A stretch of 64,000 nucleotides of DNA from Kitasatospora sp. NBC_01287 (GTDB lineage Bacteria > Actinomycetota > Actinomycetes > Streptomycetales > Streptomycetaceae). A model generated the notes under the pieces. The model had not been told where the DNA came from. It ran no database searches and was given only the letters and a program-made list of their open reading frames with translations. Numbering within the stretch: position 1 is the first letter of the stretch; each line of letters starts with the position of its first letter. The position numbers were made by a program, and so were the translations under genes. The stretch is taken from positions 3,324,501-3,388,500 of the forward strand of contig NZ_JAPEPB010000001.1 of the NCBI RefSeq assembly GCF_026340565.1. Reading direction: 5' to 3'. Shown here piece after piece: positions 32,109-52,800 of the stretch.

Positions 32109-32673
32109 CCCCGCGGCCGCCGCCCGTGCCACCACCTCCGCGAAGATCGTTGTCGCGGGTGGCTTCGGCGTCGGCAAGACCACCCTCGTCGGCGCGGTCT
32201 CCGAGATCAACCCGCTGCGCACCGAGGCCGTCATGACCTCCGCCTCGGCGGGCATCGACGATCTGACCCACACCGCGGGCAAGACCACCACCACGGTGGC
32301 GATGGACTTCGGCCGCATCACGCTGGACGAGGACCTCATCCTCTACCTGTTCGGCACCCCCGGACAGGACCGCTTCTGGTTCATGTGGGACGACCTCGTG
32401 CGCGGCGCCATCGGCGCCGTCGTCCTGGTCGACACCCGCCGCCTGGCCGACTGCTTCCCCGCCCTCGACTACTTCGAGAACAGCGGCCTGCCCTTCGTCG
32501 TCGCCCTCAACGGCTTCGACGGGCACCAGGCGCACACCCCGGACGAGGTCCGCGAGGCGCTCCAACTCGGCCCCGACACACCGATCATCACCCTGGACGC
32601 CAGGCGCCGGGACAGCGCCAAGAGCGCCCTGATCACCCTGGTCGAACACGCGCTACTCGCCCGGCTGCGCTGA
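32089..32673 (+). CDS. cvnD: Conservon 2 Ras-like GTPase CvnD
   Basis: This 194-residue GTPase is a near copy of CvnD1: P-loop GGFGVGKTT, G3 GTPGQDRF, G4-like ALNGFDG. Differences cluster at residues about 61-66 (LTHTA instead of ISKVS) and GHQAH instead of GYQPH. Synonymous sites are also mostly identical to cvnD1. The start lies within cvnC2. No fifth conservon gene (cytochrome P450, cvnE) follows either copy. Confidence 0.94.
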   Translation: MDFASSSPAAAARATTSAKIVVAGGFGVGKTTLVGAVSEINPLRTEAVMTSASAGIDDLTHTAGKTTTTVAMDFGRITLDEDLILYLFGTPGQDRFWFMWDDLVRGAIGAVVLVDTRRLADCFPALDYFENSGLPFVVALNGFDGHQAHTPDEVREALQLGPDTPIITLDARRRDSAKSALITLVEHALLARLR

Positions 32674-32755: not shown

Positions 32756-34381
32756 TCAGGCCTCCGGCGTCAGGCCGGCCTTGAGCAGGGTGTAGGTGTA
32801 GGCGTCCTCCAGCGCGAGCCAGGAGGCCGCGATCACGTTGTCCGCGACGCCGACCGTGGACCAGGTGGCGCTGCCGTCCGTGGACTCGACCAGCACCCGG
32901 GTGCGCGAGGCCGTGCCGTGCTCGCCCTCCAGGATCCGCACCTTGTAGTCGACCAGCTCCAGCTTCGCCAGCTGCGGGTAGATCCGCTCCAGGGCGGCCC
33001 GCAGCGCCTTGTCCAGGGCGTCGACCGGGCCGTTGCCCTCACCGGTGGCGATCATCCGCTCGCCCTTGGCCCAGAGCTTCACGGTCGCCTCGTCGCCCGC
33101 CCGCCCACCCGCCAGCTGCTCGCTGATGGTCCGCCAGGACTCCAGGGTGAAGAAGCGGTCCCGGTTGCCGTTCACCTCGTCACGGAGCAGCAGTTCGAAG
33201 GACGCGTCGGCCGCCTCGTAGGTGAAGCCGAGGTTCTCCTGCGCCTTGACCCTGGCGACCACCCGGCCGACCAGGTCGCGGTCGGCGGACAGGTCGTAGC
33301 CCAGTTCCCTGCCCTTGAGCTCGACCGAGGCCCGCCCGGCCATGTCGGAGACCAGCATCCGCATGGTGTTGCCGACCAGCTCGGGGTCGATGTGCTGGTA
33401 GAGGTCCGGGTCGACCTTGATCGCGGAGGCGTGCAGGCCGGCCTTGTGCGCGAAGGCCGAGACCCCGACGTAGGGCTGGTGGGTGGACGGGGTCAGGTTC
33501 ACCACCTCGGCGATGGCGTGCGAGATCCGGGTCATCTCGGCCAGCTTGCCCAGCGGCAGCACCCGCCGTCCGTACTTGATCTCCAGCGCGCCCACCACCG
33601 GGAAGAGGTTGGCGTTGCCGACCCGCTCGCCGTAGCCGTTCGCGGTGCACTGCACGTGGGTGGCGCCGGCGTCCACGGCGGCCAACGTGTTGGCCACCGC
33701 GCAGCCGGTGTCGTCCTGGGCGTGGATGCCGAGCCGGGCGCCGGCCGAATAGGTCCGGCACTGCGCGAGGACGTCGGCGACGATCTCGCGCACCCCGCCG
33801 GGCAGCATCCCGCCGTTGGTGTCGCAGAGCACCACCACGTCCGCGCCGGCCTGGTGGGCGGTGCGGACCACGGCGAGGGCGTACTCGCGGTTGGCCCGGT
33901 AGCCGTCGAAGAAGTGCTCGCAGTCGACGAAGACCCGGCGGTCGCGGGAGCGCAGGTAGGCCACGCTGTCCCGGACCATCTCCAGGTTCTCCTCCAGCGT
34001 GGTGCGCAGCGCCAGCTCCACGTGCCGGTCGTGGGACTTGGCGACCAGGGTGATCACCGGGGCGCCCGAGTCGACCAGCGCCGCGAGCTGCGGATCCTCG
34101 GCCGCGTTGCCGCCGGCCCGCCGGGTGGCCCCGAAGGCGACCAGCCGCGCGTGCTTGAGGTCCAGCTCGGCGGCCGCCCGGGCGAAGAACTCGGTGTCCC
34201 GGGGGTTGGCGCCGGGCCAGCCGCCCTCGATGAACCCGACCCCGAAATCGTCCAGGTGCCGTGCGATGGTCAGCTTGTCGGCCACCGTGAGGTTGATGCC
34301 CTCGCGCTGCGCGCCGTCGCGCAGGGTGGTGTCGAAGACGTGGAAGCTGTCGTCGGGGTGACGCGTACTGCCGTCGGTCAT
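32756..34381 (-). CDS. cimA: Citramalate synthase
   Basis: CimA condenses pyruvate and acetyl-CoA to (R)-citramalate, a threonine-independent entry to isoleucine. It is often annotated as leuA-like. The 541-residue protein has the DRE-TIM barrel with VFDTTLRDGAQREGIN near the N-terminus, the LCDTNGG motif, GIHAQDDTGCAVAN, and HKAGLHASAI. A C-terminal LeuA-type allosteric domain follows (about residues 400-540). The ATG at 34381 has GGAGAAACCAGGG upstream; a longer reading to 34561 would run through the attenuator hairpin. An upstream leader peptide with two Ile and two Leu codons plus a terminator suggests control by charged Ile-tRNA. Confidence 0.94.
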   Translation of the reverse strand: MTDGSTRHPDDSFHVFDTTLRDGAQREGINLTVADKLTIARHLDDFGVGFIEGGWPGANPRDTEFFARAAAELDLKHARLVAFGATRRAGGNAAEDPQLAALVDSGAPVITLVAKSHDRHVELALRTTLEENLEMVRDSVAYLRSRDRRVFVDCEHFFDGYRANREYALAVVRTAHQAGADVVVLCDTNGGMLPGGVREIVADVLAQCRTYSAGARLGIHAQDDTGCAVANTLAAVDAGATHVQCTANGYGERVGNANLFPVVGALEIKYGRRVLPLGKLAEMTRISHAIAEVVNLTPSTHQPYVGVSAFAHKAGLHASAIKVDPDLYQHIDPELVGNTMRMLVSDMAGRASVELKGRELGYDLSADRDLVGRVVARVKAQENLGFTYEAADASFELLLRDEVNGNRDRFFTLESWRTISEQLAGGRAGDEATVKLWAKGERMIATGEGNGPVDALDKALRAALERIYPQLAKLELVDYKVRILEGEHGTASRTRVLVESTDGSATWSTVGVADNVIAASWLALEDAYTYTLLKAGLTPEA

Positions 34382-34554: not shown

Positions 34555-34588
34555 AAAACAAAAGACCCCTCGCGGGTGCGAGAGGTCT
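34555..34588 (-). terminator. Attenuator hairpin in the cimA leader
   Basis: On the minus strand an 11-bp stem (AGACCTCTCGC, loop ACCC, GCGAGGGGTCT; one mismatch) is followed by TTTGTTTTG. It lies between the leader peptide and cimA, about 175 nt before the cimA start, as expected of a transcription attenuator. Confidence 0.75.
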
Positions 34589-34641
34589 GCGCGCGGGTCG
34601 TGTGACGCTGTGCTCGTCCCGCGGGGTTCACTGCGGAACGG

Positions 34642-34692
34642 TCACTGCGGACCGGCGCGCCTGCTGCTAATAATGAGCGCGAGCGAGGACAC
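34642..34692 (-). CDS. cimA leader peptide MSSLALIISSRRAGPQ
   Basis: This 16-codon reading frame starts with GTG at 34692 and reads CTC-GCG-CTC-ATT-ATT early on. It thus has two Leu and two adjacent Ile codons, and ATT is rare in this GC-rich genome. It ends about 55 nt before an intrinsic terminator placed ahead of cimA. The arrangement fits ribosome-mediated attenuation in response to isoleucine (and leucine) supply. A CAGACT hexamer 6 nt before the GTG could make it leaderless, but no clear -35 is visible. Confidence 0.6.
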   Translation of the reverse strand: MSSLALIISSRRAGPQ

Positions 34693-34785
34693 GTTCGCAG
34701 TCTGGCACAGGTTCCGCGGGGTGGGCGGGACGTCTCGCGATCCGGGACGGGGTGTCAGAAGCGGAACACTTCGGGGTTACCCACC

Positions 34786-34834: not shown

Positions 34835-35947
34835 TCAGGCGATGGGGTGCAGCCAGCCGTGGGTGTCGGCCACGGTGCCGCCCTGGATGCCGAGCAGGGT
34901 CTCGCGCAGGCGCATGGTGACCGGGCCGGGCTCGCCCTTGCCCACGGTCCAGTCGGCGCGGGCGGACTTGACCGAGCCGACCGGGGTGATCACGGCGGCG
35001 GTCCCGCAGGCGAAGACCTCGGTGAGGGTGCCGTCGGCGTTGGCCTGCTTCCACTCGTCGGTGGAGATCTTGCGCTCCTCGGTGGCGTAGCCGAGGTCGG
35101 CGGCCATGGTGAGCAGCGAGTCGCGGGTGATGCCGGGCAGCAGGGCGCCGGAGAGCGCGGGGGTGACGATCTTCGCGTCCTCGCCCTCGCCGAAGACGAA
35201 GTAGAGGTTCATCCCCCCCATCTCCTCGATCCACTTGTGCTCCGCGGCGTCCAGCCAGACCACCTGGTCGCAGCCCTGGGCGGCGGCCTGCGCCTGGGCC
35301 ACCAGGGAGGCGGCGTAGTTGCCCGCGCACTTGGCGGCGCCGGTGCCGCCGGGGGCGGCGCGCACGTACTCCTCGGAGAGCCAGACCGAGACCGGCTTGA
35401 CGCCACCGGGGAAGTAGGCGCCGGCCGGGGAGGCGATCACCACGAAGAGGTACTCGTTGGCCGGGCGGACCCCGAGGCCGATCTCGGTGGCGAACATGAA
35501 GGGCCGCAGGTAGAGGCTCTGCTCGGCCTCGGTGGGCACCCACCCGCGGTCCTGCTGGACCAGCAGCTCGACGGCCTTGACGAAGGCCTCGGTGGGCAGC
35601 TCGGGCATCGCCAGGCGGCGGGCCGAGGCCTGGAAGCGGGTGGCGTTGGACTCGGGGCGGAAGGTGGCGACGGAGCCGTCGGGCTGGTGGTAGGCCTTGA
35701 GGCCCTCGAAGATCGCCTGCCCGTAGTGCAGGGTCATGTTCGCCGGGTCCATCTCCAGCGGCGCGTACGGGGTGAGCTGGGCGTCGTGCCAGCCGCGGCC
35801 CTCGGTCCAGCGGATGGTGACCATGTGGTCGGTGAAGATCCGGCCGAAACCGGGGTTCGCCAGCCGCGCCTCGCGCTCCGCCGCCGACAGCGGGTGCGCG
35901 GAGGGCTTGAGCTCGAACGTGATGGGCGCCTGGGTGGGCGTGGTCAT
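34835..35947 (-). CDS. ilvE: Branched-chain amino acid aminotransferase
   Basis: IlvE transfers the amino group between glutamate and the keto acids of Leu, Ile and Val. The 370-residue PLP fold-type IV enzyme is of the large BCAT type, with [24 protein letters not shown], the PLP-lysine region [28 protein letters not shown], and [10 protein letters not shown]. The ATG at 35947 has AAGGA about 9 nt upstream. It lies 186 nt downstream of leuB on the same strand. A 37-codon frame overlaps its start by 4 nt but is weakly supported. Confidence 0.95.
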
Positions 35948-36133: not shown

Positions 36134-37171
36134 TCAGCCGGCTACTCGGGCGGCGAGCGCGTCGCCGACCTCGGTGGTGGTGCGGGTGCCGGTGCGCTCG
36201 GCCAGGTCGGCGGCGACCGCCGCCTCGACCGCGGCCGCCTCGGTGGTGAAGCCGAGGTGGTCCAGCAGCAGGGCGACCGACAGCACGGTGGCGGTCGGGT
36301 CGGCCTTGCCCTGGCCCGCGATGTCCGGGGCGGAGCCGTGCACCGGCTCGAACATCGAGGGGAACTCATCGGAGGGGTTGATGTTGCCGCTCGCGGCCAG
36401 GCCGATGCCACCGGTCACGGCGGCGGCCAGGTCGGTCAGGATGTCGCCGAAGAGGTTGTCGGTGACGATCACGTCGAACCGCTCGGGCTGGGTGACGAAG
36501 AAGATGGTCGCCGCGTCCACGTGCAGGTAGTCGGTGGTGACCTCGGGGAAGTCCTGGCCGACCTGCTGGAAGATCCGGGTCCACAGGTGGCCGGCGTGCA
36601 CCAGCACGTTGTTCTTGTGGACCAGGGTCAGCTTCTTGCGCGGGCGGGCGGCGGCGCGGCGGTAGGCGTCGCGGACCACGCGCTCGATGCCGAAGGCGGT
36701 GTTGAGGCTGACCTCGGTGGCCACCTCCTGCGGCGTGCCGGTGCGCAGCGAGCCGCCGTTGCCCACGTAGGGGCCCTCGGTGCCCTCGCGGACCACCACG
36801 AAGTCGATCTCGGGGTCGCCGGCCAGCGGCGACGGCACGTTCGGGAAGAGCTTGCCCGGGCGCAGGTTGATGTGGTGGTCGAAGGCGAAGCGCAGCTTCA
36901 GCAGCAGCCCCCGCTCCAGCACCCCGGACGGGACCGACGGGTCCCCGATGGCGCCGAGCAGGATCGCGTCGTGCGACTTCAGCTCCGCCAGCACGGTGTC
37001 GGGCAGGGTCTCCCCGGTCGCGTGGTACCGGCGGGCGCCGAGGTCGTACTCGGTGGTCTCCAGCTTCACGTCGCCGGGGAGCGCGGCGGTGAGCACCTTG
37101 AGGCCTTCGGCGACGACTTCCTGGCCGATGCCGTCACCGGGGATCACTGCGAGACGAAGGGTGCGAGACAT
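36134..37171 (-). CDS. leuB: 3-isopropylmalate dehydrogenase
   Basis: LeuB oxidatively decarboxylates 3-isopropylmalate to 2-ketoisocaproate in leucine synthesis. The same activity on beta-methylmalate serves the citramalate route. The 345-residue protein begins [20 protein letters not shown]. It has the substrate and metal motifs [44 protein letters not shown] (NAD and Mg site), and [14 protein letters not shown]. The ATG at 37171 is at the usual family start, and longer readings begin inside the adjacent decayed gene. GGAG is present about 13 nt upstream. Confidence 0.95.
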
Positions 37172-37181
37172 GCCGGGAACG

Positions 37182-37568
37182 CTACTCCTGCGTCCCAGGG
37201 GATGACATCTTCCGTCCACTATCCGGACGGATGGTCAGCGGGACGTCGAGCGGGAAGGGGTGCTCCACGGTCAGGCGGTCGTGGAAGATGCCGGTGGGGA
37301 CGTAGCTCGGGCTCGGGCCGGTTCCGCTCGTCGAGCTTCACGGTCATCTCCCGCCAGACCTCCCAGCCCGCGGGAGCGGCACGCTCCAGCGCGCACGCTC
37401 AAGCACCCGGATCATCAGCGAGTGAGACGTGGTCTGCGGGCTCACGAAGATCAGGCTCCCGTCGATCAGCTCCGTGTGCGGAGGCAGGTCCGGGAGCCGG
37501 TCCAGGTCATCGGCCGTCCAGCCGCCGACGGGCGGCCGGAGCCAGTCCGGGAACGGTTCGACGCTCAT
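37182..37568 (-). pseudogene. Decayed Uma2-family nuclease-like gene
   Basis: The first frame, from the ATG at 37568, reads MSVEPFPDWLRPPVGGWTAD, then PPHTELIDGSLIFVSPQTTSHS. This is the start of a Uma2 (DUF820) restriction-endonuclease-fold protein. After VLERA the homology shifts frame to WEVWREMTVKLDERNRPEPE. A second break, with loss of the middle of the domain, joins this to YVPTGIFHDRLTVEHPFPLD in another frame, which runs to the stop at 37182. Intact members are about 190 residues, so two frame changes and an internal deletion have destroyed this copy. Streptomyces genomes carry many Uma2 genes. Confidence 0.7.
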
Positions 37569-47750: not shown

Positions 47751-49604
47751 TCAGTCGAGGTCGTCGCCGAAGTCGGGACGCACGTCCCGGGCGAACAGGA
47801 TCTCGTCGTTGCTGGTGCCGGCCGCGACCATCGGCCAGACCATCGCGTCCTGGTGGACGATGAAGTCGATCACCACCGGGCGGTCGTTGATCGCCATCGC
47901 CTGCTCGATCACCGCGTCCAGGTCCTCCGGGCGCTCGCAGCGCAGGCCCACGCAGCCCATAGCCTCGGAGAGCAGCACGAAGTCCGGGATCCGGGTGCCC
48001 TGCGGCGGCGGGGCGACCCCGTCGTGCTCGGGGCCCGCGTGCAGCACGGTGTTGGAGTAGCGCTGGTTGTAGAAGAGCGTCTGCCACTGGCGGACCATGC
48101 CCAGCGAACCGTTGTTGATCACCGCGACCTTGATCGGGATGTTGTTCAGCGCGCAGGTGACCAGCTCCTGGTTGGTCATCTGGAAGCAGCCGTCGCCGTC
48201 GATCGCCCAGACCGCCGACTCCGGCCGGCCCGCCTTGGCCCCCATCGCGGCCGGCACCGCGTAGCCCATGGTGCCCGCGCCGCCGGAGTTCAGCCAGGTG
48301 GCCGGCTTCTCGTAGCTGATGAACTGCGAGGCCCACATCTGGTGCTGGCCGACGCCCGCCGCGTAGATGGCGTCCGGGCCCACCAGCTGACCGATCCGCT
48401 CGATCACCTGCTGCGGCGAGAGCTCCCCGGCCGGGGCCGGCTCGTAGCCCAGCGGGTAGGTCTTCTTCCACTCGTTGAGCTTGACCCACCAGTCGCCGTA
48501 GTCGCCCTTGCGGCCGGCCTCGTGCTCGGCCTGGACGGCGACGATCAGGTCGGCCAGCACCTCGCGGGCGTCGCCCACGATCGGCACGTCGGCCGGGCGG
48601 TTCTTGCCGATCTCGGCCGGGTCGATGTCGGCGTGCACGACCTTCGCGAACGGCGCGAAGCTGTCCAGCTTGCCGGTGACCCGGTCGTCGAACCGGGCGC
48701 CGAGGGTGAAGAGCAGGTCCGACTTCTGCAGCGCGGTGACCGCCGGGACGCTGCCGTGCATGCCGGGCATGCCCAGGTGCTGCGGGTGGCTGTCGGGGAA
48801 GGCGCCCAACGCCATCAGGGTGGTGACCACCGGGGCGCCGGTCAGCTCGGCCAGGATCCGCAGCTCGGTGGTGGCGTTCGCCTTGAGCACGCCACCACCC
48901 ACGTAGAGGACCGGCTTCTTCGCCGCGACCAGCAGCTTGGCGGCCTCGCGGATCTGCTTGGCGTGCGGCTTGGTGACCGGGCGGTAGCCGGGCAGCGAGG
49001 TCTCCACCGGCCAGCGGAAGACGGTGGTGGACTGCAGCGCGTCCTTGGCGATGTCGACCAGCACGGGGCCGGGGCGGCCGGTGGCGGCGATGTGGAAGGC
49101 CTCGGCGATCACCCGGGGGATCTCGGCCGGGTCGGTGACCAGGAAGTTGTGCTTGGTGATCGGCATCGTGATGCCGCAGATGTCCGCCTCCTGGAAGGCG
49201 TCGGTGCCGATCGCCTTGGAGGCGACCTGGCCGGTGATCGCCACCATCGGGACCGAGTCCATGTAGGCGTCGGCGATCGGGGTGACCAGGTTGGTCGCGC
49301 CCGGGCCCGAAGTGGCCATGCAGACGCCCACCTTGCCGGTGGCCTGCGCGTACCCGGTGGCCGCGTGGCCCGCGCCCTGCTCGTGGCGGACCAGGATGTG
49401 GCGCACCTTGACCGAGTCCATCAGCGGGTCGTACGCCGGCAGGATCGCCCCGCCCGGGATGCCGAAGATCGTGTCCGCGCCGACCGCCTCCAGCGAGCGG
49501 ACGAGCGACTGCGCGCCGGTCATCGTCTCGACGACCACGGACGCGTCCGCGGACGGGGCGGCCGGGTGGTCCCCGCGGCGGGGGGATGCCGTGTGCTCAG
49601 TCAT
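47751..49604 (-). CDS. ilvB: Acetolactate synthase large subunit
   Basis: IlvB makes acetolactate and acetohydroxybutyrate from pyruvate and 2-ketobutyrate using thiamine pyrophosphate. The 617-residue protein has [23 protein letters not shown], the catalytic Glu region [16 protein letters not shown], a FAD-binding middle domain, and the TPP motif [22 protein letters not shown]. It starts at ATG 49604 after a 220-nt leader containing a leader peptide and terminator. It heads the ilvB-ilvN-ilvC operon. Confidence 0.97.
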
Positions 49605-49712
49605 CTGCCTGTCTTCTTTCGCCGGGCGACTGTCCGCTTCACACCATTTTCAGGCGAGTCGGACTGGCGGTACAACGGTGTTCGGAGGGAGTTCACATCG
49701 TGCGATTGCAAC

Positions 49713-49746
49713 AAAAAACCCCTCGTGCCAAGGGCAAGCGAGGGGT
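49713..49746 (-). terminator. Attenuator terminator in the ilvB leader
   Basis: On the minus strand ACCCCTCG pairs with CGAGGGGT around a 13-nt loop and is followed by TTTTTG. Just upstream a 12-bp stem, GGCGCGTCGGCT (49801-49790) with AGCCGACGCGCC (49758-49747), begins inside the leader peptide coding region and can act as the competing pause structure. Confidence 0.85.
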
Positions 49747-49787
49747 GGCGCGTCGGCTAGTCGTGAGTCGGGCACAGCAGCCCTGGC

Positions 49788-49829
49788 TCAGCCGACGCGC
49801 CCGCCAAGTACGAGAATTCGGGTGCGCAT
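49788..49829 (-). CDS. ilvB leader peptide MRTRILVLGGRVG
   Basis: The 13-codon frame contains Ile-Leu-Val-Leu in a row (ATT-CTC-GTA-CTT) and a further Val. Three of these are rare codons in this genome. It is followed by a pause hairpin and a terminator before ilvB. This is a classic branched-chain amino acid attenuator. Its ATG lies 7 nt after a -10-like hexamer, so the mRNA probably begins at the AUG. Confidence 0.85.
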   Translation of the reverse strand: MRTRILVLGGRVG

Positions 49830-49866: not shown

Positions 49867-52800
49867 GCAGGTGGGATCGCCGTCTCGCCATACGGACCCA
49901 CGCTGGACCCCGGTCCCGGACCGCCCAGCGGCCGGTGCTCCGGGGGCTCGTGGGGGCCGTGGTGGTGGGCCGAGCGGATCGGACCCGGCTCCCCGCATGC
50001 ACCCGATCGGGTGTCGGCGGCGGACAGGTACGCGCGGCGGGCCGAGATCGCGCCCAGTGGCCGCGGCAGCGGGTAGAGCCGGCGGGCGAGCGCCCGGCGC
50101 AGCCGGAACTCGTCCAGCGGCTGCGCGAAGGCCAGGCCCTGCCCGTGCCGGCAGCCCAGCTCCTGCAGCACGGTGACCTGGCGCTCCTGGTCCACCCCCT
50201 CGGCGGCGGTGGCCAGCCCCAGCTCCCGGCCCAGCCGCAGCGCGTGGCCGGCCAGCGCGCGGCTGCGCGGGTGCTCGACCAGCTCCTGCACCAGGGCGCG
50301 GTCCAGCTTGAGCGCGTCGAACGGCAGCCGCACCAGCGCGCCCAGCGAGCCGCCGCCGGCGCCGAAGCCGGCCAGCGCGGTGCCGACCCCGAGCCGGCGC
50401 AGCGCGGCCAGCTTGCGGCCCAGCTCGTCGGCGGAGGCGTCCGGGCCCATCCGGGCCAGCTCGATCACCAGCCGCTCGGGCGGCAGCCCCGAGTCGCGCA
50501 GCGCCCCGGCGATGGTCTCGTGCACCCCGGGCGCGCAGAGCCGCTCCGCGGTGAGCCGCACGGTGACCGGGACCGCGCCCGCCGGGCTGCGCCCCGCGGG
50601 ACCGCGCAGTGCCGCTCCGCGCAGCGCCGCCTCGGCGATCGCCTGCTGCAGCTGCCAGCGGGTGAACCGGCCGGCCGCGTCGCCCGCCTCGGCGCCGCGC
50701 AGGAACTCGGCCGGGGTGAGCAGCAGGCCCTGGGCCGAGCGCCAGCGGGCGATCGCCTCCAGGCCGGCCACCGCGCCGGTGCGCAGGTCGACCACCGGCT
50801 GGTGGAGCAGCGCGAAGCTGCCCTCGCGCACGGCCAGCCGCAGCCGGTCGTCCAGCTCCCGGCGGCGCTCCACGTCGGCGCGCATCGCGGGGCTGTAGAG
50901 CACCACCCGGCCCTTGCCCTCGGACTTGGCCCGGTACATCGCCAGGTCGGCGTCGCGCATCAGCTCGTCGGCGAGCGTCGCGACCTCGGCCACCGGCGGC
51001 CCGTACGGGTCGAGGTCGCGCGGACCGAAGGCGATCCCGATGCTGGCGGCCACCGCCAGCTCGGCGCCGGCGATCCAGTACGGCTCGGAGAGCGCCAACC
51101 GCAGCCGCTCGGCCAGCTCCTGCACCCGCAGCCGGCCCAGCGGCCCGCAGACCAGCACCGCGAACTCGTCGCCACCCAACCGCGCCACGGTGTCGCCGGA
51201 GCGCACGGTGGACTGCAGCCGGCGGCCGGCCTGCACCAGCAGCTGATCCCCGACCTGGTGTCCGGCGCTGTCGTTGACCGCCTTGAAGCCGTCCAGATCG
51301 AGGAAGAGCACGGCCACCGTGTCCGGCTCCTGGTACGGGTGTTCGCGCGGGCACTCCGCGCCGATCGGCTGCGGGCCGCGCCCGCCCAGCGCGGCCCGCA
51401 GCCGCTCGGCGAAGAGCGCCCGGTTGGGCAGGTCGGTGAGCGGGTCGTGGAAGGCGTTGTGCTGCAGCTGGGCCTGCAGCCTGACCCGCTCGGTGACGTC
51501 GCGGCTGTTCAGGATCAGCCCGTCGCGGTAGCGGTTGACGGTGGACTCCACGTGCAGCCACTCGCCACCGCCGGCCATGATCCGGCACTCCACCCGGGCG
51601 CTGGGCTCGCCGCTGCGCGCCGGGGCGTGGGTGAACTGGCGGGCCAGCCGCTGGCTGCGGGCCAGGAACCGGCGGACCTCGCCGGTCACCCGGTCCGCGT
51701 CCTCCGGGTGCACCAGGTCGAGCAGCCGGCCGCCGACCAGCTCCTCCGGGTCTCGGCTGTAGACGCCGAGCGCGGCCGGGGAGACGTAGGAGAGCACGCC
51801 GTTGGCCCCGGTGATCATGATCACGTCGCTGGAGCCCTGCACCAGTGAGCGGAAGTGCGCCTCCTTCTGCGCCAGTTCCTGGGCCAGCGACAGGTTGTCC
51901 AGCAGCATGATGCCCTGACGGACGATCAGCGCCAGGCCCACCGTGCAGGCGACCACGATCACCACCCGGTCCATCGGATGCCCCCCGAGAGCGTTGTAGA
52001 GGATGCCGGCGGTGCAGACCGAGGCGGCGGCGTACGGGGTCAGCGCGTTGAAGGTGGAGGCCACCCGGCGCCGGGGCGTGCCGCCGGCCGAGGGGTGCTC
52101 GCGACTGGGCCGCCCGCGCCGCCAGCGGTTCGACCACGGGGCCGAGGCGAGCAGCAGGCTGCCGGCGAACCAGCCCGCGTCCAGCAGGTCGCCGGAGTGG
52201 TAGCTGTCGCGCAGCGCGGGCGAGGTGAAGAGACCGTCGCAGACCACGGTGACCGCCAGGCCCAGCATCGCGGTGTGCACCGCGGCCCGGTTGCCGTCCC
52301 GGCGGCGGAAGCGCAGGCCGACCACCAGCGAGACCATCAGGATGTCGAGCACCGGGTAGGCCAGGCCCAGGGCGAGCCGCAGCGGGTTGCCGATGTCGCC
52401 CTCCGCGGTGCGGCCCAGCGCCAGGCTCCAGCTGAGCGTGAAGAGCGAGCCGGCCACCATCCAGCCGTCCAGCAGCAGGCAGAGCCAGCCCGCCGCGCCG
52501 CGCGGGCGCTGGGCCAGCACCAGCAGGCCGGTGATGGCCAGCGGCGCGAACGGCAGGAAGGCGTAGTCGGCCGGCGAGTCCGAGGGCAGGCCGGTGCGCA
52601 GCACCACCTCGTACCAGCCCCAGGTGCCGTTGCCGACCGCCACGGTGGCCGAGGAGAGGCCGAAGAGCAGCCAGGCGGGACGGGCCGGCCCCGGCACCGT
52701 GCAGCCGTGCGCCAGGCAGGAGAGCGCCGCCGCCAGGGCCGCGCCGGCCAGGCCGAAGTCGCCCATGAAGAGGGCCAGCGAGCGCGAGCCCCAGCCGGTG

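Follow-up and report, generated by a model that had tools for sequence, protein, structure and literature searches.

The question raised by this locus is whether the short stretch of DNA ahead of the gene for the initial enzyme of one route to isoleucine carries a device that senses isoleucine and, if so, how sensing might be converted into a decision on transcription. In the window (the whole stretch of DNA analysed, 64,000 nucleotides) the gene following the leader is cimA according to TIGR00977; all LeuA models remained below their cutoffs with the same protein, and citramalate synthase activity is predicted for it. The gene lies in a neighbourhood of branched-chain amino acid (BCAA) synthesis genes, ilvE and leuB (Table 1), and was found in all 70 genomes of the genus. 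A second CimA-like gene is present in a few genomes, 55-60% identical in most of them and 79% in G170; in the two cases L126 (G170) and L127 (G187), no leader preceded it according to the detector. In many congener drafts the contigs end 130-310 bp past the 3' end of cimA (about 32450-32620 in the window), inside a small GTPase gene of a conservon-like cluster, which is probably an assembly-breaking repeat.

Table 1. Positions in the window of the cimA leader, its parts and related features.
Feature	Position	Strand	Basis and remarks
Conserved box ATCGCGAGACG	34731..34741	minus	upstream of the leader promoter; exact match to RTSGCGAGACG; possible operator
-10-like CAGACT	34699..34704	minus	6 nt 5' of GTG; putative promoter of a leaderless transcript
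Leader frame MSSLALIISSRRAGPQ, 16 codons	34692-34642	minus	GTG start, TGA stop; read from sequence
Tandem Ile codons ATT ATT	34669..34674	minus	proposed sensor; sole peptide feature conserved across families
P1, antiterminator-type hairpin	34589..34660	minus	minimum free energy fold; outer strands 34660-34650 and 34599-34589
Inner hairpin of P1	34616..34639	minus	just 3' of the stop codon; in relatives' folds, structure kept in Streptomycetaceae, sequence variable
T, intrinsic terminator with T-run, 11 bp	34555..34588	minus	terminator scan; compensatory changes; stem-loop 34588..34563, then tail TTTGTTTT
cimA, citramalate synthase	34381..32756	minus	TIGR00977, 632 bits (cutoff 450); ATG start
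ilvE	34835..35947		
leuB	36134..37219		
Second exact match to the box	49881-49891	minus	upstream of the ilvB leader promoter
Sibling element: frame MRTRILVLGGRVG (49829-49788), P1 and T	49710..49829	minus	R1 match (49811..49710) and sequence
ilvB	47751-49604		

The leader frame reads GTG TCC TCG CTC GCG CTC ATT ATT AGC AGC AGG CGC GCC GGT CCG CAG TGA on the minus strand; a GTG start codon is read as methionine only at initiation. ATT is a rare codon in this DNA, making up 2 of the 481 isoleucine codons in the 32 high-GC3 open reading frames of the window and none of the 43 in cimA, ilvE and leuB together. The description of a leader peptide with tandem rare isoleucine codons, given in the first-pass annotation, was thus borne out by the frame and the codon counts. 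In the 70 congeners, the isoleucine codons of the leader are ATT in 128 of 134 cases, and methionine replaces one of them in about six genomes.

No consensus promoter was found in the leader region by the sigma-70 scan. The congeners (about 70) share a near-identical leader with the -10-like CAGACT approximately 6 nt 5' of GTG, and TGTGCCAGACTNC occurs at the matching distance from GTG in relatives. The GTG, or a nucleotide beside it, is probably the transcription start, which would make the mRNA leaderless. Further upstream, a box similar to RTSGCGAGACG recurs in the aligned relatives; exact matches in the window number just two, ahead of the promoters of the cimA and ilvB leaders, and mark a candidate operator common to both at which a BCAA regulator might act.

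The terminator T has 11 pairs (seven of them G-C) and a loop of 4, and the scan gave no other terminator-like site on the minus strand of the region. An 11-bp terminator with a T-run ahead of citramalate synthase had already been noticed, and the scan confirmed it. The first-pass annotation made no mention of P1, the long hairpin that forms the central part of the element. In the window leader, the 5' strand of P1 begins 8 nt after the isoleucine codons and its 3' end adjoins T without a gap. Across leaders, the last isoleucine codon ends 3-10 nt (mode 5) ahead of P1, which ranges from 22 to about 79 nt and is longer in a few congeners. When overlaps and gaps were allowed, a gap of 0 between P1 and T was preferred in 49 of 57 cimA leaders, and four overlapped. 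Across the class, leader frames end most often in UAG (33/58), which would not be expected in actinobacteria of high GC content; this stop codon either adjoins the first base of P1 or overlaps it.

Both hairpins covary across 30 genera. Ten pairs changed on both sides, and double changes were counted in 43 cells against 10.9 in shuffles. Pairing was retained in 93.5% of P1/T cells compared to 39-57% for slid versions; the P1 pairing percentages of the detector arise partly by construction, and it is the covariation count that serves as independent evidence. No Rfam family (T-box, riboswitch or others) matched the leader above the gathering score, nor was any relevant match seen at E up to 5; the only matches in the window were tRNAs.

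To place the element in a wider range of hosts, cimA was located by TIGR00977 in 100 genomes of other families and the upstream DNA was then read, with no motif search. A terminator, an abutting P1 and an isoleucine-containing frame were present together at 58 of 76 diverse actinobacterial cimA loci as against 3 of 1520 dinucleotide shuffles; the full pattern with a run of at least two isoleucine codons occurred at 49 of the 76 loci and in none of the 1520 shuffles. The combination of leader, P1 and T, which recurs ahead of cimA in most of the actinobacterial families examined, is far beyond chance. In some families (e.g., L160, L178, L179 and L181) the element is missing upstream of cimA. The cimA genes of family f20 (L166, L170, L172) have a different leader, containing GGCGGCGAACC.

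Altogether, these sequence data suggest that the element is very likely an isoleucine-responsive, ribosome-mediated transcription attenuator of cimA: the frame is rich in codons for the product of the pathway, a terminator stands between frame and gene, and a second hairpin depends on the position of the ribosome in folding. The idea of an attenuation circuit built of isoleucine codons and a terminator, put forward in the earlier annotation, is supported by the conserved isoleucine run and was incomplete, as no antiterminator was named; P1 would be that element. RNA synthesis would begin at the GTG or close beside it, and the leader frame would be translated by a ribosome. Counted from the first A-site base, a ribosome shields about 12 nt; with the first isoleucine codon in the A-site, its edge would therefore lie just before P1, and with the stop codon there, it would lie over the 5' strand of P1. 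With ample Ile-tRNA, the ribosome would reach the stop codon and cover the P1 5' strand, and T would end transcription before cimA. With scarce Ile-tRNA, the ribosome would stall at ATT-ATT with its leading edge just before P1, P1 would fold, and polymerase would read through into cimA. In untranslated RNA, P1 and T would both be folded and termination would be expected too. This logic, in which a stall leads to the antiterminator and to readthrough and a ribosome at the stop codon permits termination, has been put forward and backed by experiments for the ilvB sibling in two species: in C. glutamicum, mutations were made in the terminator and the antiterminator (PMC11857589), and in M. tuberculosis the data comprise ribosome footprints, a premature transcript and a mutant lacking the terminator (PMC13236596).

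Folding with ribosome masks gave P1 values of 0.96 with the A-site at the first isoleucine codon, 0.60 at the last and 0.00 at the stop codon, and T values of 0.94-0.96 at every ribosome position. A competing antiterminator pairing to the 5' arm of T was not found over shuffles (mean duplex z 0.01, 0/48 below -2). As T is folded at all ribosome positions and its 5' arm has no such partner, a classical base-sharing switch is unsupported. Pairing of the strand before T with the GCGCGCGGG stretch after T was also considered and dropped, as GCGCGCGGG is transcribed after the decision and was unseen in the short-leader families. Termination at T in vivo is what the model predicts. Since P1 and T abut and rarely share bases, we propose that P1, once folded, would place the stalled ribosome against the base of T and thereby keep the lowest T pairs from closing, and infer that P1 would defeat T in this way.

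The same attenuator might instead work by ordinary competition, with P1 and T overlapping by a few nucleotides and exchanging pairs as modelled for C. glutamicum ilvB. The 3-nt overlap described there (PMC11857589) and the overlaps of 1-3 nt favoured in some ilvB and leuS leaders give this version some weight; against it speak the exact abutment favoured by most cimA leaders, with only four overlapping, and the folding of T in all modelled states. We regard it as rather unlikely, though the strongest of the alternatives.

Other genes are preceded by the same RNA design. A covariance model, R1, built from 30 cimA leaders only, scored the window cimA leader at 63.4 bits and gave one further strong match in the window (29 bits, E 3.5e-8), which precedes ilvB. 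Judged by its sequence, this sibling is a leader of the known actinobacterial ilvL type. R1 matched 144 of the 198 genomes of the class, with secondary sites before ilvB, leuS and ilvA (genes named by reading the translated beginning of the following frame rather than by HMM). Tested directly on loci, it detected 27 of 29 ilvB, 17 of 30 leuS and 6 of 19 ilvA, the last all in family f20. In that family (L346, L347, L349, L351, L352, L353) the scaffold with codons of the MGIT, MAIT or MVIT type precedes ilvA. A gap of 0 between P1 and T was the commonest in cimA, ilvB and leuS leaders alike.

On this common scaffold, the codons before P1 specify Ile for cimA, Leu/Val for ilvB, Leu for leuS and Ile for some ilvA. 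In the five codons preceding P1, isoleucine accounted for 118 of 272 in cimA leaders versus 3 of 69 in leuS leaders (P 3e-11) and 12 of 135 in ilvB leaders (P 1e-13), and leucine for 44 of 69 in leuS leaders; the Fisher P values for the codon differences, 3e-9 to 5e-21, assume independent codons and take no account of relatedness. Outside the class, R1 matched in 25 genomes. In other classes, two leuA leaders carry LLL (MSQNLLLT and MTSTRIHRSALLLL) and a cimA leader IIII (MSASIIIIA), the genes being named from the translated start and not by HMM. In two genomes of another class (L369, L381), the scaffold with a Val-rich leader (MGFKDRTGLLVVVT, and one ending in SVLVVI) stands before a gene resembling an isochorismatase-type hydrolase. 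Since the codons vary with the downstream gene while the RNA scaffold stays constant, the isoleucine codons favour cimA over leuA, a point raised in the first-pass annotation with which the HMM comparison agrees. This variation amounts to a natural codon-swap experiment.

This matching of codons to pathway bears on a second alternative, in which T works without amino acid sensing, as a constitutive damper of cimA or an insulator from ilvE, and the main control lies with a DNA-binding regulator at the upstream box. Such a reading would be in keeping with the restriction of exact RTSGCGAGACG matches in the window to sites upstream of the cimA and ilvB leaders, and with the S. coelicolor ilvB leader, in which changes of the regulatory codons were reportedly without effect on regulation (Craster et al., in the form quoted in PMC1262725), a report that counts against an attenuator; so does the omission of cimA from the RNA-seq list of S. 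lividans leader peptides (PMC8079986). The second alternative leaves unexplained why codons match the pathway on a shared scaffold and why the spacing from the isoleucine codons to P1 is restricted, and we hold it to be improbable. Attenuation and a regulator at the upstream box may also act as two layers together.

What is kept of the peptide itself separates the attenuator from the last alternative. In the congeners, the peptide is MSSLxL(I/M)I(S/G)SRRAGPQ, the terminator is invariant, and the stretch between them is variable but structured. The family's second genus, Streptomyces-like (the names of the relatives' families are inferred), has the peptide MLSFAMIIGSRRAGPQ, and in several species a 1-nt deletion turns it into MLSFAMIIGSSAPVRSDR, with loss of the RRAGPQ tail and retention of the RNA. 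Family f3 has MQHQPQIITACAPAPEQR, MKTRSIITGSASA and others, and further families have MQSALIIT, MLRTVVIIS, MTVRQIIF, MYFQMIII, MALPLIIA and MTFCLIIP, each ended by a stop codon. Across families, conservation is confined to Ile-Ile, P1 and the terminator and does not extend to the tail. Conservation of the small frame in relatives, proposed earlier as a check, was found, the conserved part being the isoleucine run. A nascent-chain arrest peptide, with the RRAGP tail as a SecM-type RAGP stalling motif possibly modulated by a metabolite, is very improbable and was rejected: SRRAGPQ ends the peptide in 70 of 70 congeners and arrest sequences of the RAGP/RAPP type are known (PMC10951299, PMC10951233), but this C-terminal motif is lost by the deletion in several Streptomyces-like species and missing in other families while Ile-Ile, P1 and T persist. 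Where the tail changes, the 5' strand of P1 is retained at the nucleotide level, RRAG being GCGCGCC(GG) read in that frame.

An isoleucine-responsive attenuator ahead of cimA would provide the citramalate route to isoleucine in actinobacteria with a specific feedback circuit, tied to the control of ilvB and leuS via one RNA design. The ilvB and leuS attenuators of Actinobacteria are already known (PMC1262725, PMC8079986). We found no description in the open-access literature of a cimA leader or its attenuation, nor, a broad survey aside, of a scaffold common to cimA, ilvB, leuS, leuA and ilvA; prior mention in that survey (Lopatovskaya et al. 2010, Mol Biol 44:128) is possible. The leader codons can help to separate citramalate synthase genes from those of isopropylmalate synthase, the exact abutment of P1 and T raises the question of antitermination without shared bases, and the element offers a handle on BCAA supply in antibiotic producers.

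Among known systems, the classical trp-type attenuator shares control codons, a leader peptide and an intrinsic terminator with the cimA leader; its antiterminator, however, uses nucleotides of the terminator, whereas 49 of the 57 cimA leaders have no overlap. The actinobacterial leuA LEU element likewise places a leader frame before the gene of a homologous enzyme, but it is a pseudoknot without an obvious terminator (PMC1262725), in contrast to the hairpin and terminator of cimA. The M. tuberculosis ilvB1 attenuator resembles our proposal in that a control-codon stall leads to the antiterminator, which is masked when the ribosome has reached the stop codon (PMC13236596); it differs in its LVVI codons and in hairpins described there as mutually exclusive. 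The C. glutamicum ilvBNC leader (ilvB-II motif, a 'fast' attenuator) has a BCAA-rich frame, an antiterminator hairpin beside the terminator and a BCAA synthesis gene downstream, as does the cimA leader, and its frame is leaderless (PMC11857589, PMC10272879), as the cimA frame probably is. Its control codons are, however, Leu/Val, the downstream gene is ilvB, and its hairpins overlap by GCC where those of cimA mostly abut. The Streptomyces ilvB and leuS leaders show the same order of frame, P1 and T and were detected with R1 in the same genomes, differing in their Leu/Val or Leu codons instead of Ile and in the genes that they precede. In S. lividans, ilvL and leuL2 are leaderless and encode the peptides MRTRILVLGKRVG and MRAVRLLLSEPR (RNA-seq, PMC8079986), and the ilvB and leuS leader peptides of G171 are identical to these. 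The cimA leader would join this known type of attenuator, possibly as a mechanistic variant; like the actinobacterial BCAA attenuators of the ilvB/leuS type, it has a hairpin abutting the terminator and control codons just before it.
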